Source: Prevotella sp.
GTDB taxonomy: Bacteria > Bacteroidota > Bacteroidia > Bacteroidales > Bacteroidaceae
Direction of reading: 5' to 3'
Assembly: GCA_017548275.1 (NCBI GenBank)
Contig: JAFZAH010000003.1
Location: 62,001 to 126,000 of the forward strand
DNA: 64,000 nt
Shown: piece after piece, positions 14,210 through 30,434 of the stretch
Layout of the letters: each line of letters starts with the position of its first letter
How positions within the stretch are numbered: the stretch's first letter is position 1
Made by a program: the position numbers and the translations under genes
Notes under the pieces: generated by a model
Database searches by the model: none
Told to the model about the DNA's origin: nothing
The model's input: the letters and a program-made list of their open reading frames with translations, nothing else

Positions 14210-14410
14210 ATGAAATTTTCAACAATAGCCCGATACGCATTGGCATCTTTAGCCATCGTAGCATTCACGTGTAATATGTCGTCCTGCAAGAGCCGTCAAT
14301 ATGTAGGACCAGTCAACGGCAAGATACTCAAGTCCGACGACCTGATGAAAGACTCAAAGACGGATAACACGCCCATACAGCAACTCAACAGTCTTGATAA
14401 TAATAAATGA
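14210..14410 (+). CDS. Small putative lipoprotein 2 of a radical SAM operon
   Basis: A 66-residue protein, three bases after lipoprotein 1. The hydrophobic segment LASLAIVAFT leads to CNMSSC, with Cys26 the likely lipidation site. The mature part starts KSRQYVGPVNGK, where YVGP looks like a degenerate form of the YGxP motif of its neighbours. The tail is polar (DLMKDSKTDN). Its stop overlaps the start of lipoprotein 3 (ATGA), so the two are translationally coupled. Confidence 0.78.
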   Translation: MKFSTIARYALASLAIVAFTCNMSSCKSRQYVGPVNGKILKSDDLMKDSKTDNTPIQQLNSLDNNK

Positions 14411-14685
14411 GAAAGGACAAACGCAACTGGATGATGGGAATATTGACTGGTATGATGGGCATGCTGGGCTTTTCATCATGTTGCAGCCATAAGAACGTCA
14501 TTGATGTTCCCTTGACCAAATACGGACCTCCTGTCACCTTTGACCTACCAGTGGAATTGATAGAGGTGGAAATCGACGGGAAGACCGTTCAGATGACGCG
14601 CGATCAATATCAGGAATGGCGCAAGAAACAGCAACAACAACAGATGATTGTCAAATATGGTGCGCCCACCACTAACTTCAACTAA
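14407..14685 (+). CDS. Small putative lipoprotein 3 of a radical SAM operon
   Basis: A 92-residue protein overlapping lipoprotein 2 by four bases. The signal GMLGFSSC places the lipidated Cys at 25, directly followed by another Cys. It has two YG-P motifs: KYGPPVTF near residue 39 and KYGAPTTNFN at the C-terminus, separated by a charged segment with a QQQQQ run. The repeated motif makes it the best candidate substrate for modification by the downstream enzyme. Only the secretion signal and operon position are firm. Confidence 0.8.
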   Translation: MRKDKRNWMMGILTGMMGMLGFSSCCSHKNVIDVPLTKYGPPVTFDLPVELIEVEIDGKTVQMTRDQYQEWRKKQQQQQMIVKYGAPTTNFN

Positions 14686-14974: not shown

Positions 14975-16042
14975 ATGCTGTCCCTCAGGAAGAAACTTGG
15001 TTTAGAGATAGAACGCAAGTTACAAAACAGCCTGATAAAGGAGCATCCTCTCCGTCAGTTGTTTTGGGAGAGCACATTGCGCTGCAATGTGGCTTGTCGT
15101 CATTGCGGCAGTGATTGCAAGAAGTTGCCTGACAAGCCCGACATGCCTCTGGAAGATTTTCTGCCTGTTCTTGACAATATCGCCGCCCATACCGACCCTC
15201 ACAAGGTATTTGTCATCATCTCGGGTGGTGAACCGCTGGTGCGCGACGATTTAGAGCGTTGCGGCCGAGAGATTTACAAGCGCGGTTTTCCTTGGGGCAT
15301 GGTGACCAATGCATTGTATCTGACCAAGGAGCGTTTTGATGCGCTTGTGGATGCCGGCATGCACTCAATGACGGTCAGCATCGACGGCCTGAAAGAGAGC
15401 CACAACTGGATGCGCCGCCATAAAGACAGTTTTGACCGCTGCTCGGAGGCACTGGATATCCTTGCCAATCAGACAAAGGTTGTGTATGACGTGGTGACCT
15501 GTGTCAATTCCCGCAATTATGATGATTTGCCAGAACTGAAGGAGTTCCTTATCAGCAAGAAAGTGCCGGGTTGGCGTATCTTCACTATCATCCCCGTTGG
15601 ACGTGCTGCGAATGACCCTGAAATGCAAATCAGTCCAGAACAGTTGCGCGGCATGATGCAATTTATCAAAGATAACCGTAAAGAAGGCCGCATACACACG
15701 TCATACTCTTGCGAGGGCTTTTTGGGAGAGTTAGAGACCGAGGTGCGCGATCATTTCTATTTCTGTCAGGCAGGTGTGATGGTCGCATCGGTGCTCATCG
15801 ACGGCAGCATCTCCGCTTGTGGCAGCATCCGTGCGAATTACCATCAGGGAAACATCTATCAAGATGATTTTTGGGAAGTATGGGAGAATAAGTTCCAACC
15901 CTACCGTGACCGCAGTTGGATGCGTAAAGACGAGTGCGAGGACTGCAAATATTTCCGCTACTGCCGCGGCAATGGCATGCACCTTCGCGACAGCGACGGC
16001 AAACTGCTGCTGTGCGACCTGAAGAAACTGAAAAGTCAGTAA
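14975..16042 (+). CDS. Radical SAM/SPASM peptide-modifying enzyme of the lipoprotein operon
   Basis: A 355-residue cytoplasmic enzyme. The radical SAM cluster motif CxxxCxxC is Cys37, Cys41 and Cys44, followed by an additional Cys48; SGGEP at 83-87 binds SAM. The C-terminal part has a SPASM-like Cys set, including ACGSIRANYHQGNIY and Cys321, Cys324, Cys330 and Cys347. SPASM enzymes usually modify peptides through auxiliary Fe-S clusters. Four small lipoproteins are encoded immediately upstream in the same operon. No protease or transporter gene accompanies it, which suits substrates exported by the general secretion and lipoprotein routes. The exact chemistry is unknown. Confidence 0.9.
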   Translation: MLSLRKKLGLEIERKLQNSLIKEHPLRQLFWESTLRCNVACRHCGSDCKKLPDKPDMPLEDFLPVLDNIAAHTDPHKVFVIISGGEPLVRDDLERCGREIYKRGFPWGMVTNALYLTKERFDALVDAGMHSMTVSIDGLKESHNWMRRHKDSFDRCSEALDILANQTKVVYDVVTCVNSRNYDDLPELKEFLISKKVPGWRIFTIIPVGRAANDPEMQISPEQLRGMMQFIKDNRKEGRIHTSYSCEGFLGELETEVRDHFYFCQAGVMVASVLIDGSISACGSIRANYHQGNIYQDDFWEVWENKFQPYRDRSWMRKDECEDCKYFRYCRGNGMHLRDSDGKLLLCDLKKLKSQ

Positions 16043-16115: not shown

Positions 16116-16706
16116 TTACAGATATTCTATTTGGGCTTTATCGACTACGACCCACCGGCCGCGGTCGAGACGTGCTGTGCCGGGAGTGCAAGTGAAACGC
16201 GACGACTTGGCTGTAGAAAACGAGCAGGCGCGCTCAATGTATTTTTTCGAACTGTTGTTAGCCTTGCTCAATTGTGTATCGCTCATGGTCACGAAACGGA
16301 ACTCCGCCTTGCCGCTACCCGTCAAACGGAACTCATAATAGGTGTCCTCGGTCTGAGCAGGCTGTCGTGACGCATCGTCGAACGTGCCGTCGTCGGCAGG
16401 CCAACGGAAATAAAACACATCATCACGACTTGGAGTGGCAACCTGCTGTGTAGAAATAGTTTTTGCGGTGAGCGGCTCGGAGTAGAACATCTTCTTCTCC
16501 ATGGAGGCAAGCCGCTCGTCGAGCAGACGCAAGGTCTCGCGGCACTCGGCAATCTCGCGTTCCAACTGCTCTTTCAATTCTTTTTTTGTGGCAAAATAAT
16601 CTGTCGCCTCTTTCTCGTAGGCGTCATTTTTCTGGCTCACCGAACGTACACGGTATTCGGTGTATGCGATGGCTGCGGCGAAAAGGAGAATTGTTAATAT
16701 AATCAT
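16116..16706 (-). CDS. Membrane-anchored coiled-coil protein, last gene of the tubulin/actin-like operon
   Basis: A 196-residue protein with one N-terminal transmembrane segment (ILTILLFAAAIAYT), then a coiled coil of roughly residues 25-75 rich in Glu and Lys, then a beta-rich C-terminal domain with YYEFRLTGSGKAEFRFV. I know no family for it. It is the fifth gene of the operon that starts at the promoter near 23519, and lies 50 bases after the giant ATPase gene, with a C-rich palindrome in the gap. A bridging or anchoring role is inference. Confidence 0.7.
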   Translation of the reverse strand: MIILTILLFAAAIAYTEYRVRSVSQKNDAYEKEATDYFATKKELKEQLEREIAECRETLRLLDERLASMEKKMFYSEPLTAKTISTQQVATPSRDDVFYFRWPADDGTFDDASRQPAQTEDTYYEFRLTGSGKAEFRFVTMSDTQLSKANNSSKKYIERACSFSTAKSSRFTCTPGTARLDRGRWVVVDKAQIEYL

Positions 16707-16710
16707 AGGA

Positions 16711-16740
16711 AACCCACCCCTACCCTCCCAAGGGAGGGAG
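16711..16740. repeat. C-rich palindrome
   Basis: CCCTCCC (16723-16729) and GGGAGGG (16732-16738) separated by AA, preceded by ACCCACCCCTA. It matches the elements at 741-858. Confidence 0.6.
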
Positions 16741-16756
16741 TATTGTTAATTATGAA

Positions 16757-19700
16757 TTATGAATTGTGTGTAGCGATGTGGTATGCGAGCCGGCTGATGC
16801 CTCCGGTGAGCGGGATGAAGAAGAGCGAATCGTTGATTTCGGGGTTCTCCTCGCCTGCCATGTCGTCGCGTCGGGCAGCCAGCACCTTGTTGAAGTCCTG
16901 TTCAGCCTTCTCCGTCATGATGGTGCGGAAATCGGCAAACTCCCGTTCATTCGCCACACCGAAGTACTTGGCGAAAGAGTATTTTCCGTTGAGACCGAAG
17001 AAGAACTCCACAAAACGGAGATAATCGTCAAGCACCTCCTTGCGCACGCTGTCTGTAATATCCTTATAGCGTGGTTGGGCAATGTTGTCGAGCGTAGCAG
17101 AACCCGTGCAGAAACGGGTGATTTCCTCCACGTCAGCCACCACGAAACGGTCTTTCATGTTCAGTCCGCCTTTACAAGTGATTTCCTTCGGGTTTTCTAC
17201 AAGTTTCAGTTCCACTTTGCCGTCATCGCCCAATATCTCGTTGAAGATATGTCGTGCCATGGTTTGCAGCGCGTCGATGTTACCTATCAGCGTAAGCACT
17301 TTCGAAGCCGTGCCGCTGACGGTGATATACGCTGGTGTGGGCAGCGACTTGGTCTTGAGCAGACGTGCAGCATAGTAAATCTCTGCGGCATAGAAGAGGA
17401 GCAGCACCACACGCAATTGGCTATTGCCCCGCAACTCCTCGGAGAAAGACACGCCTCTGCCTTGCATACGGGGGTTGCTGTCGAGCGAATAGAGGAATGA
17501 GACGAACTCGGCACTGGAGCGCTTCGATTTCTCATATACATCGCTCACACCTGTGATGTCGCGCAACTTGAGGTCGAAATCAGGTGCAAAGGCCCGTACG
17601 AATCCATTATATTCGCTGCCCCGTCCGAGGAAATCGCCATAGATATTGTTACCGGCGAAACGAACGGACGAAATGAGCACCGCACGGTTGTCGCGATGGT
17701 AAACCACAAAGTCGGTCGTGCCACCACCGATATCCATCGATACGACAGGCCTTGTCTCGGCATCGACATCCTCTTTCTTCGTGTAGTAATAATAGGGAGC
17801 GAGCGACTCCGCCACTTTCTGCAAACGTGCTCCCTGAGGAGCGATGAGTTTGCGGCAGAGTTTGTTCCACGATGCCTCGAGCGCGGCAATCTGATAGGGT
17901 TGCATACAGACGGGATAGAACCATGTGATGCCCGTGCGTGAGAGCATGCCACCTGAAAGGAGCACTTTATTGCGTATGAGCATCAGCAATTCCTCGAAAT
18001 ATGCCTCTACCAAGAGATTATTCCCCCGGCTGTTGTTCCATTTCAAGTCAGGTCTTGTCTCATTGTAATCATAGGTATCCTCTTTCTCATAATGGAAACC
18101 GATGTTATAATCCGCAAGGGGCAAGACGTCGCGACCGTCAACGGTATGACCAGTTCGGAAACAAAGATTGGTACGCATGGGGAATCGTGCCACCTCGCCT
18201 GAGCCTATAGTAACGGGCAGGAATTCTTGCATAAAGGCCTGAGCCGGTCCGCCAAAGAACGTTTCCAATCCCTCGGAGTCCAACAGCGAAACCGTGCGCT
18301 GTGAGAGCGAGTTGAGGGGCAGCACCTGTGCTTCTTCCTGTGCGATGACAAATGGTCTCGCCTCGGAATCGGTATCGGTCTGGTATTCAATATGTGTATT
18401 GGTCGTACCAAAGTCGATGGCGAAATCAAAGACCTTATTGCCCTGTTTCACCTCACGGTAGCGCGGTATGAGCACGCCCTCGGCATCGCCGTTGCTCACG
18501 CAGATATAATCAAACTCATCATCCAGACAGAAATAGCGGGAAGAAAGGAAATGCTGCGACTTGTCGGCACGGTTGACCTGCACCGCATCCATGGGTTCGA
18601 CAGCATGGTTTTGATAGGCTCTGACCGTATATTGATACTGGTCTTTCTTGTATCCCGTGGTATCTTCATCGACGAGATATATGCGCTGCGGACGGGCTAT
18701 CGTGGGTTCATCAATATGGAATGAGGGGAAGAGGAAGATGTCAAATCTGCCTTCCACCACGGGCCATACATCTCTTGCTGAATCGGCGGTCGCCTGCATG
18801 GGAGTGTAATCGCGTCTGAGGGCAATGTACCTGCCTTTCTGCACAGGGATATTGACCACGGCGCGAATGATTCCGCCAGGCAATTCGCTCAGAGAAAAGA
18901 CGGGCGTGGATGAAGTGCCTGCAAACCCGGCGACGGTTTTCACCGATAGATAGCGGAAAATGGCGGGTTTCAGCGGTATAAGATAGGGGCAGTCGTCATT
19001 GACTTTCCTTCCGTCACGCTCCAACGATGTGACATAGGCCGCGTCGTTCACGGGATAAGGCAACCGAATGAGCGTCGGTTGGAACACATCTTCGGCTGTC
19101 AGATACGGATATTGCGTAGTATCGAAAGGCAACGTACGCTCCTCCATGGGACGCTGGTCGGCCTTCGGCGCCATGAGGTGTGCATTCCAGTCGGCAGTGA
19201 CATAACGCATACCATTCTCAAAATAAGGCTCAGCAGGAAGCACGAGCGGAGGTCTGTCGCATGGTTTTTCAGCCAAGATGCGGAAGTCGCTGTCAGTGGC
19301 GATAGTGTTGCCACGCAGACACATCAGAGGAATGTCACCCGGCAACAAGAGTTGTGAGTTGCCTGTCTGCAGCGGCATATACATACTGGTATAAAGCCCG
19401 GGCGTATAAGTATTCAACCTATTCTTGAACTCAGTGTCCTTATCTGCTCTGAAACAGGCATCTACATACGCATAGAACTCGTGATAGAGTGCATTGAACT
19501 CAGGTTGTTTAGCCAACAGATACACAAATTCGCGGAAGCGCTGGTCGCGGTCGATAAGCGAGCGGTATGTACCATCAGCATCAGGATGAAACGCCTCGTG
19601 ATAATTGCTGAGATATACGCCATGGACGTAAGAAAGGTCATTGGCAGATGCCATGCACACGGATGTAGGCGACGTGCCACCCACGATATTGATTTGTCCG

Positions 19701-20176
19701 AGCGCCCCCTCGCCCACGTAATTGAGCATATAGACGAACTGCATCTGGTCGAAATGGAACGACTGCGCATCCTGAGAGAGGAAGAGGGCGAGCGTTTTAG
19801 CCACACTCTCATGCTCGCTGACACCATCAGAAGCCAATGTCTGCAAATCGCGGTTCTTATCCCATGTCACGATTTGAAACATCTTTTCATATTTGGCTTT
19901 GTAGCCGAAGAATATCTCGAGCACATCGAGGGCATTTGCCACGAGTTTGTGATAAATGGTCGAACCGCGCTCATTGCCCCGTTCCGCACAATAGGCGAAA
20001 GCCGTTTTGGTCAGTTCGTATCCGGCGAATGGCGTGGGAATGGATGTGATGGGCAGTGAAGCCTTCGCGCCGTTGGGGTCATCGATGGCCTCGATGTCTT
20101 TCGACCCAACCTGAGCAGTCTCCTGCCATCCGTCGATGGTCTCTGCGCCTTTATGGAATCTGAAAACGTATGGCAT
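16757..20176 (-). CDS. Giant Hsp70/actin-like ATPase
   Basis: A 1139-residue cytoplasmic protein with no signal peptide. The first 580 residues match nothing I know. An actin/Hsp70-type nucleotide fold follows: phosphate-1 FAIDFGTTNTHIEY near 580-595, phosphate-2 SMDIGGGTTDFVVYH near 810-825, and an adenosine-binding-like VSGTASKVLTLIG near 950-965. The overall size resembles SrfB-type virulence-associated proteins more than DnaK. Its gene is seven bases downstream of a tubulin-like gene, suggesting that the two proteins form one machine together with the VWA protein. Substrate and location are unknown. Confidence 0.8.
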   Translation of the reverse strand: MPYVFRFHKGAETIDGWQETAQVGSKDIEAIDDPNGAKASLPITSIPTPFAGYELTKTAFAYCAERGNERGSTIYHKLVANALDVLEIFFGYKAKYEKMFQIVTWDKNRDLQTLASDGVSEHESVAKTLALFLSQDAQSFHFDQMQFVYMLNYVGEGALGQINIVGGTSPTSVCMASANDLSYVHGVYLSNYHEAFHPDADGTYRSLIDRDQRFREFVYLLAKQPEFNALYHEFYAYVDACFRADKDTEFKNRLNTYTPGLYTSMYMPLQTGNSQLLLPGDIPLMCLRGNTIATDSDFRILAEKPCDRPPLVLPAEPYFENGMRYVTADWNAHLMAPKADQRPMEERTLPFDTTQYPYLTAEDVFQPTLIRLPYPVNDAAYVTSLERDGRKVNDDCPYLIPLKPAIFRYLSVKTVAGFAGTSSTPVFSLSELPGGIIRAVVNIPVQKGRYIALRRDYTPMQATADSARDVWPVVEGRFDIFLFPSFHIDEPTIARPQRIYLVDEDTTGYKKDQYQYTVRAYQNHAVEPMDAVQVNRADKSQHFLSSRYFCLDDEFDYICVSNGDAEGVLIPRYREVKQGNKVFDFAIDFGTTNTHIEYQTDTDSEARPFVIAQEEAQVLPLNSLSQRTVSLLDSEGLETFFGGPAQAFMQEFLPVTIGSGEVARFPMRTNLCFRTGHTVDGRDVLPLADYNIGFHYEKEDTYDYNETRPDLKWNNSRGNNLLVEAYFEELLMLIRNKVLLSGGMLSRTGITWFYPVCMQPYQIAALEASWNKLCRKLIAPQGARLQKVAESLAPYYYYTKKEDVDAETRPVVSMDIGGGTTDFVVYHRDNRAVLISSVRFAGNNIYGDFLGRGSEYNGFVRAFAPDFDLKLRDITGVSDVYEKSKRSSAEFVSFLYSLDSNPRMQGRGVSFSEELRGNSQLRVVLLLFYAAEIYYAARLLKTKSLPTPAYITVSGTASKVLTLIGNIDALQTMARHIFNEILGDDGKVELKLVENPKEITCKGGLNMKDRFVVADVEEITRFCTGSATLDNIAQPRYKDITDSVRKEVLDDYLRFVEFFFGLNGKYSFAKYFGVANEREFADFRTIMTEKAEQDFNKVLAARRDDMAGEENPEINDSLFFIPLTGGISRLAYHIATHNS

Positions 20177-20183
20177 ATCCTAA

Positions 20184-21644
20184 TTAGATATTATATTTTC
20201 TTTTGATGACATTGTTGATGGCGGTCTCATGCACGGTTATAAAGAAATTGTACGCGTCGAGCCCCTTGATACGTTTCATCGACACATCGGATATCTCGGT
20301 GTCGATGGCTGGAAAACCTTGCAGGTTCTTTCCGAAGATACGGTCCATCATGGATGTTTTCCGAGGTTCAATTCCTTTGATGGTATCGAACACATCTTTC
20401 TCGTTGGTATATAACTCGAACGGCTGGAAAGAACGCTGATTATCAGAGAGTTCTTTGAGCCATTGAGAGCGGTATGCGTCGACAAACTGGCCCAAATCAA
20501 TGAAAAACGCATCTGAATAAGACGTGTTTTTCATGGCATTGGTCTTCGCCCACGCATAATTCTTAGTCTCATTGAAATGCTCAAGATAGAAACGCGAGAA
20601 AAGATAAAAACTAATCATCTCACGTCCCATTTGGCTGAAGGTAGAGGCACCCAACTCCGACAATGTGAGCGGATTGAAGTCGTGCTTCACGCCAAACTCG
20701 CGGAAAGAGGTCTGTGTGCCGTTGCGCTGATGTTGCACATCCGTGCGGCAAAAATCGACGATACCCAATGCGGCAGCCAGTTCCACAAAATGCGCCTTAT
20801 TGCGTTGTTCTGTGGCTCCCTCCACGTTGTTGTAGCGGTTCTTGATGGCATCGCAGACATAATAGAGCGCATCGACATTGAGGTTGCCGATATAATACTT
20901 CAATGCAGCCTTTGTCTTGGAGATGAAGGTCTCCATTTTTATCTGGCTCTCCTTGTCGTCTTTGAGTCCGAAATACGGCAGCACCGACACCGCTCCGATG
21001 GGGGCGTTGGCGATGGCCGAAGAATTGGGTATATCAAGCGCTTCCGCCTCGCGGAAAGTTTTTTGGAACAACGGGAATCCCGCCGCACCCGTTCCGCCGA
21101 AAATACTGGAGATGATGAACAGTTTGTCACCACTCTGGAAATTCTGCAACAGCGACACAAGCGACTCTGTGTTCATGGGGTCGTTGAGCACGATGGCACC
21201 CATGTTGGGATTGCCCTTGAAACCCACGTCGAGCGGACAGTTGAGGTTGCTGTCAGAGAAGAGGAGCGAGAAAAGCGCCTGATTGGGGTCAGCATGACCT
21301 TCCGACGTGAAACGGTTGTATGCGATATAATCGCCAAACCTCATGTTGGCCACATTGTTGAGATGGAGGCGGAAATTGGTCCCCATGTCATCAATCTGGG
21401 TAAAGAAATATCCACGTTTCTCGGGTCTGTTGTCAAACGACAGATGTGAGCGAATTTTCTGATAGAGTTGCATCAGTCCCACTGTACGTGTGAGGTCGCC
21501 GTTTGACGTGTCCGGATCGACAATGACCGGGACGACGGTGTCGATGTTCTTTCCGAGCGATACACCCGACGCCAACAGCATGGTGAGCGACCGCAACACA
21601 CGTGCGCCCGTTCCGCCGATGCCATAAATATAGAGTTTGCTCAT
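20184..21644 (-). CDS. Tubulin/FtsZ-like GTPase candidate
   Basis: A 486-residue protein. The N-terminus KLYIYGIGGTGARVLRSL gives a Gly-rich nucleotide loop, and near residue 178 the segment SSIFGGTGAAGFPLF resembles the tubulin signature GGTGxG with one extra residue. These fit the bacterial Tubulin_2-like family rather than true FtsZ, which is shorter and lies in the cell-division cluster. No membrane segments are visible. The gene sits seven bases upstream of the actin-like ATPase gene, so their products probably act together. Confidence 0.75.
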   Translation of the reverse strand: MSKLYIYGIGGTGARVLRSLTMLLASGVSLGKNIDTVVPVIVDPDTSNGDLTRTVGLMQLYQKIRSHLSFDNRPEKRGYFFTQIDDMGTNFRLHLNNVANMRFGDYIAYNRFTSEGHADPNQALFSLLFSDSNLNCPLDVGFKGNPNMGAIVLNDPMNTESLVSLLQNFQSGDKLFIISSIFGGTGAAGFPLFQKTFREAEALDIPNSSAIANAPIGAVSVLPYFGLKDDKESQIKMETFISKTKAALKYYIGNLNVDALYYVCDAIKNRYNNVEGATEQRNKAHFVELAAALGIVDFCRTDVQHQRNGTQTSFREFGVKHDFNPLTLSELGASTFSQMGREMISFYLFSRFYLEHFNETKNYAWAKTNAMKNTSYSDAFFIDLGQFVDAYRSQWLKELSDNQRSFQPFELYTNEKDVFDTIKGIEPRKTSMMDRIFGKNLQGFPAIDTEISDVSMKRIKGLDAYNFFITVHETAINNVIKRKYNI

Positions 21645-21703
21645 TTTTTAGGTTGAGGGATGAGGGTTTAGTGTTCTAATTGAGAGGATTGTTTTTAATT
21701 AGA

Positions 21704-22120
21704 TTAGAATGGCACGTTTCGGCAACGGCTGCTGAATGATTTGAACAACAGCGATGCGATGATGTAGAATATAAACGCCCATGCGAAGACGATGACGGCA
21801 AAAGTGATATAATCGCTCGTGACAATCTCCGCGTCATAGATATTCTCACGGAAGGCGTAATCTTCTAATTTGGCACGGGCGATGACCATGGCAACCACGG
21901 CAGCCACTACGGAGGTCAACGCGCCAGTTAAAGCCCATTTTCCTGTCCGAGCCAGCAAGATGTGGTCGAGCACGATATAATAGACAAATGCCACTGCCAC
22001 CGGAAGGAGCAGCATCACATAAAAAACCGAACTATAGCCGTCTGCGGCATACATGTATTTGGAAAAGTCGCCCAGATAAGCGGCGTCCCACAATTCAAAA
22101 AGGTTGGTAATCAGTTCCAT
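21704..22120 (-). CDS. Small membrane protein of the tubulin/actin-like operon
   Basis: A 138-residue protein with three predicted transmembrane segments: YVMLLLPVAVAFVYYIVL, LTGALTSVVAAVVAMVIA and ITFAVIVFAWAFIFYIIASL. No recognised family and no catalytic motif. It is the second gene of the five-gene operon, between the VWA-like protein and the tubulin-like protein, so it may link an outer sensor to the cytoplasmic pair. That role is inference. Confidence 0.7.
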   Translation of the reverse strand: MELITNLFELWDAAYLGDFSKYMYAADGYSSVFYVMLLLPVAVAFVYYIVLDHILLARTGKWALTGALTSVVAAVVAMVIARAKLEDYAFRENIYDAEIVTSDYITFAVIVFAWAFIFYIIASLLFKSFSSRCRNVPF

Positions 22121-22127
22121 CTATTTG

Positions 22128-22162
22128 GTTTGAGATTTGAGATTTGAGGTTTGAGATTTGAA
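22128..22162. repeat. TTTGAG-type heptamer repeat, 5 units
   Basis: GTTTGAG, ATTTGAG, ATTTGAG, GTTTGAG and ATTTGAA in tandem, between the first two genes of the operon, ending two bases before the VWA gene's stop. Confidence 0.85.
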
Positions 22163-22164
22163 GT

Positions 22165-23469
22165 TTACTCATATCTTCCTACGGTGACTTTGAGGTGGAA
22201 GATGTCCTGACCAGTTGTTCCTCTGACATTGTGGAAGGCGCCATAGATGCCTTCGACCAATTCATAGAGGGCATAGGATTGGTCAGGTGCGGGATAACCG
22301 CTAAGATGTTTATCGTAACTGCTTTGTTTGACCCAATCGGGTATTTTATTCTTCAGTTTGATAGTGACTTCTGGCGCATAACCCTGGGTATTGCCCACTG
22401 CAAGTTGCATGACGATGGGATGCACGAAATAATCACTCTCCGAGAATTTGGCTTTGTCGGTGAGCGTCACCATCCGGTATTGTTCAGGCGACACCTCATA
22501 GTTGGCCGTGTCGAGCAGATAACTGCGGTCCACAAACAACTGTTCCACGCCGATGCCAACTGCAAATTTCAGGTCGTCCTGCTGTTGGTCGGTCACGATA
22601 TTGTGGATATTGATGCGGTCGTGTGCAGGATGGATTCTCCGTGCATTGGTGAATCCCGAGGTGAGCACGCGGGCAGTCTGTTGGTCCAAGTCCCATGTTT
22701 TCTCCGAAGACATGAGGAATTTGTTTCTCAATCCCGGCATACCCGTCGAAGTGTTTTCCAGTTCCATGTGAGCGACCATGTCAGCCAACTGGTCTTTTCC
22801 GCCCATCATGACAATGTAATAAGGGCGCTTGCCGTAATACATCATCGGCAAGTTACCCTCATAGTGATAGCCCTGGAACAGCGATTCCATCTGCATGAAG
22901 ATAACGGCGAACTCCTTGCCTTTATCCTGATATTTTCTGATGGCTTTCATGAAGGTGCCGGTAGTGGATGACGCTGCGGCTGAGAGCAGATTGCCCACAT
23001 TGTCAACATCGTAAATGCAGTCGCTGACAAGCACACTGACGGTGTCGCCCTGGGTGTGGTCGAGCAATTGCTTAAAGATGTGGTTGATATCTGACGAACC
23101 CGTATGTCCCACTTTCATGGAAGTGGTGTTCAAATTCAAAACAAAACTGTTGAGGTCTTGACAAATGGGAGCGTCGTAGATATCATCATTGACAAATAAA
23201 ATCTTGGTATCGTCATAATAACCGTCGGCTTTGGCGATGAGATGCCCGAGCGCGTTTTTGAACTGCGAATTCAAAGTGACGAAACCGTCCATCGACCCGG
23301 AATTCTCCAGATAGATTCTGACCACGGGTTTCGCCGTATTCATTGTCGCCGTATCAGAAGGGAGATAATTCCCGTCGCCGGAACGGTGTCCAGCGGGGCG
23401 GCTGATAAAAAATATGACAGCACCCACCACTGCTATGAGCAGCAGAAGTGCGAGCGATTTTCGTTGCAT
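22165..23469 (-). CDS. VWA-like membrane-anchored protein, first gene of the tubulin/actin-like operon
   Basis: A 434-residue protein with an N-terminal membrane anchor (ALLLLIAVVGAVIFFI) and a domain on the outer side of the inner membrane. The VWA-like fold starts at VRIYLENSGSM: residues Glu55-x-Ser57-x-Ser59 resemble the metal-ion site DxSxS with Glu replacing Asp. Further candidate ligands are HTGSSD near 122-127 and VSDC at Asp150. The C-terminal half is of unknown type. It heads the operon behind a complete promoter. The VWA role is metal-dependent protein binding; the partner is unknown. Confidence 0.75.
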   Translation of the reverse strand: MQRKSLALLLLIAVVGAVIFFISRPAGHRSGDGNYLPSDTATMNTAKPVVRIYLENSGSMDGFVTLNSQFKNALGHLIAKADGYYDDTKILFVNDDIYDAPICQDLNSFVLNLNTTSMKVGHTGSSDINHIFKQLLDHTQGDTVSVLVSDCIYDVDNVGNLLSAAASSTTGTFMKAIRKYQDKGKEFAVIFMQMESLFQGYHYEGNLPMMYYGKRPYYIVMMGGKDQLADMVAHMELENTSTGMPGLRNKFLMSSEKTWDLDQQTARVLTSGFTNARRIHPAHDRINIHNIVTDQQQDDLKFAVGIGVEQLFVDRSYLLDTANYEVSPEQYRMVTLTDKAKFSESDYFVHPIVMQLAVGNTQGYAPEVTIKLKNKIPDWVKQSSYDKHLSGYPAPDQSYALYELVEGIYGAFHNVRGTTGQDIFHLKVTVGRYE

Positions 23470-23518
23470 GCGATAGTGTAAAATTCGAATCTGACACCCA
23501 TCGAAATGAATGACGGCA

Positions 23519-23550
23519 CAAAGATACGAATTTATTCTGATTTAGCCAAA
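23519..23550 (-). promoter_or_regulatory. Promoter of the VWA/tubulin/actin-like operon
   Basis: Reading the minus strand: TTTG (23550-23547), 20 bases, TATCTTTG (23526-23519). Spacing is ideal and the first start codon is about 50 bases further on. Confidence 0.85.
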
Positions 23551-26763: not shown

Positions 26764-27753
26764 TCACTCATTTATTGTTCCGCAATGGGGGCAACGGCCT
26801 TTGCTGTGTATTTGCTTGCCGCAATTGCCGCAGATATAAGGAGAGCGGATGCGTGTAAAATATTGGTAGAAGGCAAAAGCGATGTATGCCACAAGCACGA
26901 GATAGCCAAGCACGGAAGTGGTGACCGTGGAAAAGAAAAGATAATTGAAGGCGCACACACCAAAGAGGCCCAACAAATAGACTACCGCGCCCAAAGGGGT
27001 GAGATGACGGAATGTGTCATCGACCGAGGCGATGAACAACACCAAAATCATCCATGCCGACACCAAAAACAGTGCCAGCGGGAAGGGATGCACCAAGGGA
27101 TTGAGCAAGGGGTGGAAATAGAAATGCCGCCACATTTCCGGGTCATGCTGCTGGATATAAGAGTAGATGGTCGCAGATATAGCCACCATGACAGCCAACG
27201 ATGTGGGATAGAACGTGGCGATGTCTCTAAAATGCACGATATACGCCTGCCGTTTCCTAATCATGCTAAAGGTATATCCCATGATAAGGACAATTAGTAG
27301 GAAGAGGAAGAACTGATGATGGCGGTTGGAAAAAAACATGATGAATCGGGAGACAGGGTCGTCGGGCGTCACGTTTTTCAGCATATCACTCTCCCTTACC
27401 CATCCTGACACCGACTGATCCTGCGCCAATTCAATCCACACTGAGTCGATAGTGTCGGCCTTGATGATACGGATGTCGGCCACCACGAGCACACGGTCGC
27501 GTTCCACCTCAAATGAATCGACGGGCAATCCCGACACTTTCTCCTCAGGCAACTGGCTGGTAAGCGTGAGTGAGTCGGTGCTGGCGCGGAAATTGTAATT
27601 GCGGGCATAGTGATGCAATTGTCTGAACACGACGGTATCAACCACATTGAGACTGTCGGTCAGGCTCGTGTCAGGACTGATACGATACTGCTGACACGAA
27701 ACAGATGTAAGTGCCAACAATAACAAGCAAACAAAAAAATTATACCTGCGCAT
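26764..27753 (-). CDS. Membrane lipoprotein with SH3-like and zinc-ribbon domains
   Basis: A 329-residue protein. The N-terminal lipoprotein signal ends in LTSVSC, followed by a domain with WIELAQDQSVSGWVRESDM, which resembles a bacterial SH3-like domain. Four to five transmembrane segments follow (about 140-300). The C-terminus has CGNCGKQI and GRCPHCG, a four-Cys zinc ribbon. Its start overlaps the end of the U32 peptidase gene by 14 bases, so the two are coupled. No specific function can be given. Confidence 0.78.
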   Translation of the reverse strand: MRRYNFFVCLLLLALTSVSCQQYRISPDTSLTDSLNVVDTVVFRQLHHYARNYNFRASTDSLTLTSQLPEEKVSGLPVDSFEVERDRVLVVADIRIIKADTIDSVWIELAQDQSVSGWVRESDMLKNVTPDDPVSRFIMFFSNRHHQFFLFLLIVLIMGYTFSMIRKRQAYIVHFRDIATFYPTSLAVMVAISATIYSYIQQHDPEMWRHFYFHPLLNPLVHPFPLALFLVSAWMILVLFIASVDDTFRHLTPLGAVVYLLGLFGVCAFNYLFFSTVTTSVLGYLVLVAYIAFAFYQYFTRIRSPYICGNCGKQIHSKGRCPHCGTINE

Positions 27754-29515
27754 AGAGATTCATCTGACAATGTTGACAATCAAACTGCAACGTAAACCGT
27801 CGGCCGTCGCCCATAATAAGTGTTAGGGGTTCATGCCATGAAGGACGTTTTCCGCCACGGCGCACACAGTAACCCATGACAAAACGGAGACAGTGGCGGC
27901 ACTGCATGAGAGGTTTTTCCACTTCCTTCTCCGATGAAGACAGTGTGTCAGCGGAGAGGGTATGCTGTCTATCCACACCTATTTCTTGACTCTTTTCTCT
28001 CGTTTCTGAAGACACCAAAACAGACAACTTTTCAACCGTTTGGCGACGTAAATCAGCGAGCAAACTGGAGGGGATAAAACATCCTGAGGCATCATCAGAC
28101 ACGGCCATATCGACACACTCAAAGACAGTTCCTCCGAGTTTAGTCAATTGGCGTACGATATTGTCATGCTGCGGTTTTTGAGCAGGCTGATGGGCAAAAG
28201 CGATTTCTTCCCTTGCAGCACAATCTGTTCCGATTACCTTTATATCCAACGCAAAACCTTGGTCGATGGCAGAAAAAAACATCATGACAGGAATGGTCCT
28301 GACCGCCGTTTCATGAGCCAATAAAGACGTGAACGCCTGGTCGGCATTACGATAGAGTGCGGTGTCAGGTTTCAATTCTTTCGGCATCTTATAGGGGAAA
28401 AGACGGTTGTTCTCTACCCTATTGATGCGGAAACCCGTCAGTTGACGCTGATCGTCGAAGAAGCACAGGCCATCGCCATTGGCAAACTGAGCCGTACCCG
28501 CCACATTGAACGACTGTCCACGTATCTCTTTTACCTTACCCACATATTCACCAATGGCTTTTGGTGTGTCAGGCGAGGCTATATCGGGAGTGCGGCCATG
28601 CAGGAAATAGTCGGTATACCCACGGTTGAACGTCTTGCGCAGGTCGGGAGTGAACGCATATTTGACCCTGCCGAGCGAACTGCGCAGAAACTCACCTTTT
28701 CTACGGTTGATGATTTCGTTGAGACGTATATTGTATGCCGCCACCACATTTTTCACGTAATCGGCATCCTTGAGACGCCCCTCAATCTTCAGCGACATGA
28801 CCCCAGCATCAAGCATTGCCTCGAGGTCATCGATGCGGCACATATCTTTGAGCGACAACCAATAACGCTCACCGAGCGAATGGCCGTCGGCATCCTGTAA
28901 ATTAAATTTCAACCGACAAAACTGCGCGCATTCGCCACGGTTTGCACTCCTCTGGAAACAGTATTCCGAAGCATAGCAAGCGCCCGAATAACACACGCAC
29001 AAAGCCCCATGGACAAACGCCTCCAACTCCACCTGCGGTACCTGCTGACGAATGTCGCGTATCTCATCGAGCGACAATTCACGAGCCAACACCACACGCG
29101 AGAAACCCATGTCAGCCAGTTGGCGCACCTTGTCGGCATCTCGGTTGTCGGTCTGCGTGGAAGCATGCAAGGCGGGCATTTTCACCCCTTGGTCACGCCA
29201 ATCGAGCACCATCTGCCTGACCGCCATGTCCTGAACGAGGATGGCGTCCACTTGCGCGTCGGCCAACTGTCTCAACATCCGACGCACATCCTCATGCTCG
29301 TCAGACTGCAGGAGGGTGTTGACCGTGACATACACTTTCGCCTGAAAACGGTGAGCGTATTGGCAAAGCATAGTAATGTCTTCAATAAAATTGCCTGCAG
29401 CGGCACGCGCCCCATAACGGACAGCCCCGATGTAAACTGCGTCAGCGCCATGGTCGATAGCCGCCATACCGCACTCAAGATTTTTAGCAGGTGCCAGCAA
29501 TTCTATGGTTCTCAT
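27740..29515 (-). CDS. U32 peptidase-family protein (TrhP/YegQ type)
   Basis: A 591-residue protein. The barrel begins ELLAPAKNLECGMAAIDHGADAVYIG, and the family signature EAFVHGALCVCYSGACYASEYC is followed by NRGECAQFC with further Cys residues. Family members are now linked to tRNA wobble-uridine hydroxylation (TrhP in E. coli) and to Fe-S clusters, though they were named collagenase-like. The C-terminal half with a late Cys set (QCRHCLRF, FDCQHCQMN) is longer than in E. coli TrhP. It follows the metA-type gene by one base, suggesting one operon. Confidence 0.88.
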   Translation of the reverse strand: MRTIELLAPAKNLECGMAAIDHGADAVYIGAVRYGARAAAGNFIEDITMLCQYAHRFQAKVYVTVNTLLQSDEHEDVRRMLRQLADAQVDAILVQDMAVRQMVLDWRDQGVKMPALHASTQTDNRDADKVRQLADMGFSRVVLARELSLDEIRDIRQQVPQVELEAFVHGALCVCYSGACYASEYCFQRSANRGECAQFCRLKFNLQDADGHSLGERYWLSLKDMCRIDDLEAMLDAGVMSLKIEGRLKDADYVKNVVAAYNIRLNEIINRRKGEFLRSSLGRVKYAFTPDLRKTFNRGYTDYFLHGRTPDIASPDTPKAIGEYVGKVKEIRGQSFNVAGTAQFANGDGLCFFDDQRQLTGFRINRVENNRLFPYKMPKELKPDTALYRNADQAFTSLLAHETAVRTIPVMMFFSAIDQGFALDIKVIGTDCAAREEIAFAHQPAQKPQHDNIVRQLTKLGGTVFECVDMAVSDDASGCFIPSSLLADLRRQTVEKLSVLVSSETREKSQEIGVDRQHTLSADTLSSSEKEVEKPLMQCRHCLRFVMGYCVRRGGKRPSWHEPLTLIMGDGRRFTLQFDCQHCQMNLYAQV

Positions 29516-29516
29516 C

Positions 29517-30434
29517 TTACTTTATCTCATCGATATTGAACGGTGTAGTCTGATAGACGTAATAGTTAATCCAATTGTTGTAGAAGAGATTGGCATGTGA
29601 GCGCCAAGTGACCAGCGGTTTTCGGTCGGGGTTGTTGTCGCGGTAATAATTGACAGGTAACTCCACATCATTGCGCACCCCCAAATCGCGCCGATATTCC
29701 TTGTCGAGCGTGTCGGGCGCATATTCGAGATGTCCCGTGACGAAGATTTCCCTACCTCCGCGAGCCATGACTATCCCCACCCCACTCTCTTCTGACTCCG
29801 CCAGCAGTTGGAGGTCGGGACATGCGAGGATATCCTCACGCCTAATCTCTGAATGTCGGCTTTGAGGCATATAGAACACATCGTCGAACCCCCTGAAAAT
29901 CGGCACCAGCGCATCGACCTTTGTTTGGGGGAATATGCCGAACATTTTCTTTTCAAGCGGATATTTGGGTATGCCAAAATGGTAATATAACCCTGCCTGT
30001 GCCGCCCAGCAGATGAAGAGGGTACTGGTGACATGTGTCTTTGCCCAAGCAAAGATATCTGTTAACTCCTCCCAATATGCCACCTGCTCGAAATCGAACT
30101 GTTCGACGGGAGCGCCTGTGACAATCATACCGTCGTATTTTTCTTTACGCATGATTTCGAAATCCCTATAGAACATCATCATGTGTTCTATGGGGGTGTT
30201 TTTCGGCGTATGGCTACGCAATTTCATGAACGATATTTCCAATTGGAGGGGCGTGTTGGAAAGGAGACGCACCAAGTCGGTCTCGGTGGTCACCTTCAAA
30301 GGCATGAGGTTGAGGATGGCTATCCGCAAGGGACGAATGTCCTGCGAATGTGCTCTGGTGTCGTCCATCACGAAGATGTTCTCACGCTTTAGCAAATCAA
30401 TGGCCGGCAAGCGGTCAGGCAGTCTTAAGGGCAC
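29517..30434 (-). CDS. metA: MetA-type homoserine O-acyltransferase, predicted acetyl-CoA-specific
   Basis: First step of methionine synthesis from homoserine. The 305-residue protein keeps the MetA numbering exactly: nucleophile Cys142 in LFICWAAQAG, and His235 and Glu237 in VTGHLEY. Residue 111 is Glu (GAPVEQFDF). In the family, Glu at 111 goes with acetyl-CoA and Gly with succinyl-CoA, so homoserine O-acetyltransferase is the likely activity. The start is a GTG at 30434, fixed by alignment with the family N-terminus (PLRLPDRLPA). A TTTGAG heptamer array lies ten bases upstream. Confidence 0.93.
   Translation of the reverse strand: MPLRLPDRLPAIDLLKRENIFVMDDTRAHSQDIRPLRIAILNLMPLKVTTETDLVRLLSNTPLQLEISFMKLRSHTPKNTPIEHMMMFYRDFEIMRKEKYDGMIVTGAPVEQFDFEQVAYWEELTDIFAWAKTHVTSTLFICWAAQAGLYYHFGIPKYPLEKKMFGIFPQTKVDALVPIFRGFDDVFYMPQSRHSEIRREDILACPDLQLLAESEESGVGIVMARGGREIFVTGHLEYAPDTLDKEYRRDLGVRNDVELPVNYYRDNNPDRKPLVTWRSHANLFYNNWINYYVYQTTPFNIDEIK

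Follow-up and report, generated by a model that had tools for sequence, protein, structure and literature searches.

Divergent tubulin homologs of the FtsZl1 type (Tubulin_2, PF13809) have been described with VWA, GTPase, kinase and OmpA-type partners and were predicted to act in membrane remodeling; a Bacteroides caccae sequence was included in the FtsZl1 alignment (Makarova and Koonin, 2010; PMC2875224). Their link to VWA proteins was cited in 2015 in work on archaeal membrane proteins (PMC5898192), and in a 2023 study of tubulins Tubulin_2 was singled out as a scattered and divergent group (PMC9871819). In the DO-GTPase/GAP1-N2 conflict systems of Firmicutes and Actinobacteria, a GTPase-GAP1 core is accompanied by tubulin or HSP70 in "non-overlapping themes" (Kaur et al., 2020; PMC7159879), and in the Zorya system an ion-driven motor, ZorAB, binds to peptidoglycan and recruits an effector (PMC11890865). 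In this study, we analyzed a five-gene operon in a 64,000-nucleotide stretch of Prevotella sp. DNA (contig JAFZAH010000003.1, positions 62,001 to 126,000; "the window"), in which a Tubulin_2-like protein and a large predicted actin/Hsp70-superfamily ATPase are encoded side by side, and found that these two genes form a near-obligate pair across genomes.

The operon consists of five open reading frames (ORFs) that run head to tail on the minus strand (16116-23469), behind a single promoter. In gene order, the features are (aa, amino acids; TM, transmembrane):

23519..23550, minus strand: promoter of Bacteroidales type, TTTG...TATCTTTG, exact pattern, 49 bases upstream of the first gene
22165..23469, minus strand: VWA-like protein, 434 aa, one N-terminal TM segment (ORF, profile comparison, hydropathy)
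21704..22120, minus strand: three-TM protein, 138 aa (ORF, hydropathy)
20184..21644, minus strand: Tubulin_2-like (FtsZl1-like) protein, 486 aa (Pfam matches of relatives, motifs)
16757..20176, minus strand: predicted actin/Hsp70-superfamily ATPase, 1139 aa (motifs, weak profile matches)
16116..16706, minus strand: N-terminal-TM, coiled-coil-like protein, 196 aa, in the variable 3' module position (coiled coil judged by eye)

All five ORFs lie where the initial annotation had placed them. They are separated by 44, 59, 7 and 50 bases in gene order, the seven bases from the tubulin-like stop to the actin-like start being 20177-20183, as had been claimed. The promoter was searched as TTTG-N(17-23)-TAnnTTTG, which we take to be the Bacteroidales promoter consensus. 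The window contains 13 such sites versus 1.34 expected from shuffles, and none of the 13 falls within the operon, in agreement with the single promoter that had been proposed at 23550-23519. Hydropathy analysis (script, cut-off 1.6) placed TM segments in three of the proteins (one in the VWA-like protein at residues 5-23, three in the 138-aa protein, one in the 196-aa protein at residues 2-20) and none in the tubulin-like or actin-like protein. The ratios of nonsynonymous to synonymous substitution rates (dN/dS) relative to locus L002 were 0.055 for the VWA-like, 0.136 for the three-TM, 0.043 for the tubulin-like, 0.070 for the actin-like and 0.105 for the 196-aa protein, so that in comparison with this one relative all five genes are under purifying selection; dS was saturated for the more distant relative L034. 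Together with the gene order kept in relatives, the ratios rule out chance or decaying ORFs, and the view of the operon as one conserved unit with membrane parts was upheld.

In almost all genomes with a tubulin-like gene, an actin-like gene is linked to it. In the genus, a tubulin-like gene was present in 71 of 218 genomes, at 76 loci (after an overlapping fragment row in G721 was dropped). An actin-like gene (E ≤ 1e-10) was detected in 65 genomes, every one of them tubulin-positive. At 67 of the 76 loci it was directly downstream on the same strand, with 3-408 bp between the matches, and at the remaining nine the downstream ORF (1128-1357 aa) matched the actin profile with E-values of 1.4e-9 to 7.2e-27, for a total of 76/76. 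No contig of the genus had an actin-like match without a tubulin-like gene; the one exception, G734:C267, reflects a gene divided between two contigs.

The same holds for more distant genomes. Tubulin-like genes were found in 16 of 247 genomes of the order, at 19 loci including that of the window. Eighteen of these were examined (the nineteenth, G155:C69, is at a contig end), and 16 had an actin-like gene, which was absent at L102 and L103. A direct search with the actin profile matched 60 of the 247 genomes (E ≤ 0.001), strongly in only 10 of them (11 loci, all beside a tubulin-like gene); nearly all the weaker matches, which are short and near the phosphate-2 motif, are taken to be FtsA or MreB. 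At the phylum level, 11 of 345 genomes (10 besides the window's own) contained a tubulin-like gene, and an actin-like part was found at nine of the ten non-window loci, L124 being the exception. The expectation that the two genes would stay together, voiced with the initial annotation as a check, was therefore borne out. Separately, the tubulin-like gene of L124 is followed directly by genes for a 358-aa, TM-bearing protein and for a MotB-like protein.

At two loci, both parts are joined in one stop-free ORF (L125:8097-13142, 1681 aa; L126:548-5395, 1615 aa). The tubulin loops lie at residues ~9 and ~188, and DFGTSHS and DLGGGT are found in the actin part. The actin profile matched residues 993-1354 (L125, E 8.9e-13) and 933-1307 (L126, E 7e-11), a range that does not reach the adenosine motif, and the E-values for the tubulin profile were 1.1e-12 and 1.3e-9, respectively; the matches of both parts are modest. 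Downstream of each joined ORF lie genes for another membrane protein and for a MotB-like one (ZorB E-value just 0.0072 in L125; labeled by eye in L126). Cyanobacterial plasmids also show the gene order small multi-TM, tubulin-like, actin-like (two of five records inspected, L155 and L156), and one cyanobacterial record annotates a "tubulin-like doman-containing protein" with a "hypothetical protein" as neighbor. Together, the above observations show that the pair, in its gene arrangement, is a near-obligate unit.

With its relatives considered, the assignment of the 486-aa protein to the Tubulin_2 type is well supported at sequence level. Motif conservation was assessed in 70 non-redundant sequences selected by our own tubulin profile:

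21597..21623, minus strand: T1-loop-like motif GIGGTGARV, residues 8-16 (G10, G11 and G13 in 70/70, T12 in 69/70)
21087..21107, minus strand: T4 signature SIFGGTG, residues 180-186 (S180, F182, G183, G184, T185 and G186 in 70/70)

The glycine-rich T1-like (GGTG, 10-13) and T4 (SxFGGTG, 180-186) loops are thus kept in 69-70 of the 70 sequences. Among 40 family members, PF13809 was matched by 24 (E ≤ 0.001, best 2.2e-10) and PF00091, the Tubulin/FtsZ GTPase domain, by 16 (E ≤ 0.001, best 3.1e-9); the window protein belongs to this set and is itself short of the threshold, with 14.2 bits for the Pfam tubulin family (cut-off 27). This is characteristic of the operon as a whole. In Pfam and NCBIfam, each of the window's five proteins was below cut-off or without match, and the family signal emerges solely with the relatives. 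The best profile match in the PDB was the Tubulin/FtsZ GTPase 3zid (E 0.014). A search of the window genome with the tubulin-family profile (E ≤ 0.001) gave no match, in a setting where the control was detected in 3 of 14 cases. Our own profile of 29 Bacteroidales FtsZ proteins scored at noise level (hhalign, 0.5%), which indicates that the tubulin-like family is very distant from FtsZ; since this profile failed, tubulin homology rests on Pfam and motifs. Family members are mostly 465-580 aa long, and a canonical FtsZ is encoded elsewhere in the window genome (G000:C22).

The 1139-aa protein is predicted to be an actin/Hsp70-superfamily ATPase, as supported by motifs and relatives. The following motifs occur in order (conservation among 72 sequences, a set that includes near-identical or duplicate loci):

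18392..18415, minus strand: phosphate-1 motif DFGTTNTH, residues 588-595 (D588 and G590 in 72/72)
17711..17734, minus strand: phosphate-2 motif DIGGGTTD, residues 815-822 (D815, G817, G818 and D822 in 72/72)
17300..17317, minus strand: adenosine-motif-like SGTASK (type SGTxSK), residues 954-959 (G955 in 72/72)

With K997 and G1003, nine residues are invariant. Pfam matches of 12 members were weak, with FtsA in six and MreB in four (E ≤ 0.1, best 0.0019); a cyanobacterial member matched Pfam FtsA with an E-value of 4.1e-5, yet with 24.4 bits versus a cut-off of 31.8. The best PDB profile match was MreB (E 5.4e-4). A comparison by hhalign with 20 presumed FtsA proteins gave 96.4% (E 1.1e-9), versus at most 0.3% for seven other profiles, and is partly circular, because these 20 proteins are unchecked weak matches of the same actin profile. 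Members are ~1050-1360 aa long in the fetched genus loci and have a long N-terminal part, and no profile matched the N-terminal ~580 residues of the window protein. The initial annotation had described these two proteins as Tubulin_2-like and actin/Hsp70-like, which agrees with the motifs and relatives, and had pointed to SrfB-type proteins as closest to the latter, which is not supported: the window protein scores 10.1 bits for SrfB (PF07520, cut-off 27.1), and only 1 of 12 relatives matches at E ≤ 0.1 (0.032). A genome search with PF07520 matched no control genome and was uninformative. At one related locus (L001:5644-9063), where the tubulin-like protein is 98% identical, the actin-like gene is split into two ORFs, by assembly error or recent decay.

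The first gene of the operon encodes a VWA-like protein with residues of a metal-ion-dependent adhesion site (MIDAS), in line with the earlier description of a membrane VWA-like protein:

23290..23307, minus strand: MIDAS-like ENSGSM, residues 55-60 (D150 conserved too)

Among 56 non-redundant sequences selected by our own VWA profile, the MIDAS residues are kept in 56 (E/D55), 56 (S57), 55 (S59), 54 (T/S126) and 56 (D150) cases, with mostly glutamate in place of aspartate at the first position (50 E, 6 D). By hhalign, the family aligned with a set of 29 VWA_2 proteins over the expected region (60.6%, E 8.3e-5), the second-best profile reaching 10.2%. No member matched a Pfam VWA family in sets of 11 and 31. 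By a crude pattern, 29 of the 56 proteins have a lipobox-like cysteine, and the part beyond the N-terminal TM segment is probably periplasmic. In a divergent clade (L158-L166), no [DE]xSxS is present in the gene at the VWA position of seven of the nine loci; the remaining two have a single stray match each, and L166 alone matches our VWA profile (E 0.0072). As the MIDAS pattern is mostly missing there, VWA is not universal among the operons.

The operon genes diverge in step at a conserved chromosomal site. This site comprises HTS, U32 peptidase and lipoprotein genes (window 26764-30434; the lipoprotein is found in 216 of 218 genus genomes), and two divergent operon versions occur there in different genomes (6 and 13 of 19 site stretches). 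All five compared proteins were available in 12 of the 19 stretches (U32 was limiting, as some U32 sequences were cut short). Across these 12 genomes, pairwise identities of the tubulin-like protein correlated with those of the actin-like (r = 1.00) and VWA-like (0.97) proteins, and less with those of the lipoprotein (0.67) and U32 (0.34). Mean identities between versions and within each version were 0.36 versus 0.79/0.79 for the tubulin-like, 0.31 versus 0.72/0.73 for the actin-like and 0.22 versus 0.68/0.58 for the VWA-like protein, compared with 0.53 versus 0.59/0.61 for the lipoprotein and 0.44 versus 0.50/0.47 for U32. Operon genes are thus far more divergent between versions than within, whereas the flanks hardly differ, which speaks against plain vertical inheritance at the site and makes exchange of the operon as a block the preferred and simplest reading. 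A possible alternative is deep ancestral paralogy followed by differential loss. In six tubulin-negative genus genomes (L192-L197), the stretch fetched beside the site contained no operon (the lipoprotein was labeled in five of the six), and in a one-contig genome (G674, locus L172) the operon is located half a megabase from the site. In several site loci, a TonB-dependent receptor gene lies just upstream.

The 3' end of the operon is variable. The position of the TM/coiled-coil-like gene of the window is occupied elsewhere by a small gene and a gene with a weak zinc-ribbon match, by a multi-TM protein and a ZorB/MotB-like protein, or by TerD. A ZorB-like gene was found in 15 of 78 loci; ten of these had served to build the search profile, which then recovered the other five. 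Three duplicate loci were left out of the count, in which further overlap is possible and some stretches stop short. The multi-TM and ZorB/MotB-like genes follow the actin-like gene at L036:9426-11774, L093:12593-14958, L172:14598-16895 and others, with the ZorB motif FFWxSYxDLMT. Six proteins were tested with PADLOC ZorB, and five matched at 2.3e-10 to 1.8e-27, the sixth at 0.0072. For the multi-TM partner, PADLOC ZorA gave 8e-8 (L100), 2.8e-4 (L036), a weak 0.028 (L093) and no match (L099). In the TerD-bearing clade, the gene in the VWA position is mostly without the MIDAS pattern; a TerD domain (PF02342, E 2.9e-42) was found in the one gene tested, L159:11188-12485, beside a divergent tubulin-actin pair. 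The 192-aa protein of L160 that adjoins a divergent-clade operon had no Pfam match, and the Pfam assignment to TerD therefore does not extend to all such 3' genes. TerD look-alikes were also seen by eye in L158, L164 and L122.

We tentatively favor the view that the operon encodes one envelope-anchored, nucleoside triphosphate (NTP)-driven machine for surveillance of, or response to, envelope attack or stress; that its products form a single machine is likely, but unproven. The tubulin-like and actin/Hsp70-like unit co-diverges with the membrane-anchored VWA protein that bears the MIDAS residues, and is usually accompanied by a small multi-TM protein. The VWA domain may bind a ligand outside the inner membrane (cell-wall, phage or competitor damage), and the three-TM protein could relay the signal inward. 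Inside, the tubulin-like and actin-like proteins would assemble in GTP- and ATP-dependent cycles, as a polymer or as a switch and unloader. The 3' module would then provide output or energy, by a Zorya/Mot-type ion-driven stator in other genomes and possibly by the TM/coiled-coil-like protein in the window; for the stator-bearing members, our model is borrowed from the published ZorAB motor. Because the genome has its own FtsZ and the operons show a patchy, divergent and modular pattern with Zorya- and Ter-type companions, conflict or stress is favored over a housekeeping function, and the role is most likely that of a diversifying conflict-type system rather than cell division.

Several observations weigh against this interpretation. 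PADLOC matched none of the five window proteins, the window operon has no stator gene (ZorA, ZorB), and a clear ZorA-like partner was seen in just one of four cases tested. Three tubulin-like genes have no detectable actin-like neighbor (L102:8021-9613, L103:7434-9035 and L124:8250-9488). The correlation of the operon with its flanks is significant (lipoprotein, r 0.67, Mantel p 0.001; U32, r 0.34, p 0.019), and the history is therefore partly vertical. No defense genes were recognized near the HTS/U32/lipoprotein locus, where no scan was aimed at them, and tblastn of both proteins versus phages gave no match, which also argues against a phage origin.

The main competitor is a membrane-remodeling or cell-shape machine, as in the proposal of Makarova and Koonin, with a tubulin-like polymer under the inner membrane that the actin-like protein anchors or drives in the style of FtsA and FtsZ. 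The published FtsZl1-VWA neighborhood (PMC2875224), the membrane proteins in the operon and the prevalence of FtsA and MreB among the weak Pfam matches of the actin-like family (6/12 and 4/12, E ≤ 0.1) are all consistent with it. However, the patchy presence (71/218, 16/247 and 11/345 genomes in genus, order and phylum) and the strong divergence of versions would be unusual for shape genes, the TerD and ZorB-like modules suggest otherwise, and a reviewer of the 2010 paper doubted gene context as proof of remodeling (PMC2875224). We therefore regard this explanation as unlikely, though deserving of serious attention.

A chaperone model, in which an Hsp70-like ATPase merely assembles or disassembles the tubulin-like protein and a membrane complex, with no second filament, appears rather improbable to us. 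ASKHA motifs suit Hsp70 as well as actin, and the large size of the members with their long N-terminal part would fit; the next downstream protein of L160 is weakly HSP70 (17.0 bits versus a cut-off of 20.6). HSP70 also belongs to another theme of tubulin-type systems (Kaur et al., PMC7159879). Against this, the weak matches of the family itself are to FtsA, MreB and similar proteins, and a Pfam Hsp70 domain was found in 0 of 12 members. An NTP-powered secretion, transport or surface-mechanics machine, with an ion-driven stator in some members, is very unlikely. It could draw on the MotB/ZorB-like gene of 15 of the 78 loci, on lipoprotein-like proteins noted by eye in several 3' modules and on the upstream TonB-dependent receptor gene of several site loci, but no recurrent outer-membrane channel or secreted substrate was recognized in the operons, most accessory ORFs of which are unannotated.

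To return to the envelope-anchored machine, it might have a composite cytoskeletal NTPase at its core: the obligate tubulin-actin unit, sometimes one polypeptide, would be the motor of a trans-envelope device with a VWA sensor outside and often a Zorya/Mot-type ion-driven stator. We consider this possible, with considerable reservation. Tubulin-like and actin-like filaments are normally studied separately, and FtsZ and FtsA cooperate in bacterial division; we know of no FtsZ-FtsA fusion. If the model is correct, this would be the first system with the two great cytoskeletal folds physically and catalytically coupled. A widespread operon that pairs the two near-obligately, with natural fusions, offers a simple handle on tubulin-actin coupling. 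The FtsZl1-VWA prediction of 2010, for which no experimental test was found in the literature consulted, thereby becomes a complex whose partners are defined and which can be put to the test.

Two further observations concern the surroundings of the operon. The nine closest loci in a protein search are from metagenome-assembled Prevotellaceae, several with a ruminant source in the title. In the window, a small lipoprotein-like ORF with two KYGxP repeats (14407-14685) lies beside a TIGR04133 radical SAM/SPASM protein (14975-16042), and the two are perhaps a peptide-modification pair, separate from the operon.

Among known systems, SrfB (PF07520; SrfABC, PMC6950479) shares with the actin-like protein its large size and a weak match at the actin-type phosphate-2 motif. 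The differences from SrfB are a score below the family cut-off and no SrfA/SrfC-type Pfam match (E ≤ 1) among the five window proteins. As in Zorya, a ZorB-like protein that has the membrane aspartate motif is encoded in relatives of the operon, with a ZorA-like partner in one case at least (L100); unlike Zorya, the window operon is without stator genes, and no tubulin or actin-like component is mentioned in the parts of the Zorya description consulted (PMC11890865). With the DO-GTPase/GAP1-N2 systems, it has in common tubulin homologs and an extracellular vWA near the membrane, theirs including an HSP70 theme and a predicted conflict role (PMC7159879). In the present case, however, tubulin and an actin-like ATPase occur together, and in Bacteroidota and Cyanobacteria. 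No GTPase/GAP1 family was among the Pfam matches of the five window proteins (E ≤ 1) or of 12 actin-like members (E ≤ 0.1), the Pfam coverage of those families being unconfirmed in both cases.

Closest, together with these conflict systems, are the FtsZl1-VWA operons, which likewise combine a Tubulin_2-type protein with a glycine-rich GTP-binding loop, a membrane or secreted VWA protein and more membrane proteins (PMC2875224). In most FtsZl1 proteins the FtsZ domain is followed by a coiled-coil region, and P-loop GTPase, kinase or OmpA partners are frequent (PMC2875224); the tubulin-like protein described here is 486 aa long and has an actin-like gene as near-fixed partner. The main text of the FtsZl1-VWA paper names no actin or Hsp70 partner (PMC2875224), though one of the unnamed families in its supplements may be the actin-like protein, and a tubulin-actin partnership or fusion was not found in the open-access literature searched. 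The initial annotation knew of no characterized system of this make-up. This is too strong in view of the published FtsZl1-VWA (PMC2875224) and GTPase-tubulin/HSP70-VWA (PMC7159879) neighbors, but it holds for one part, as the element that is new relative to them, within that literature, is the tubulin-actin unit and its fusion.

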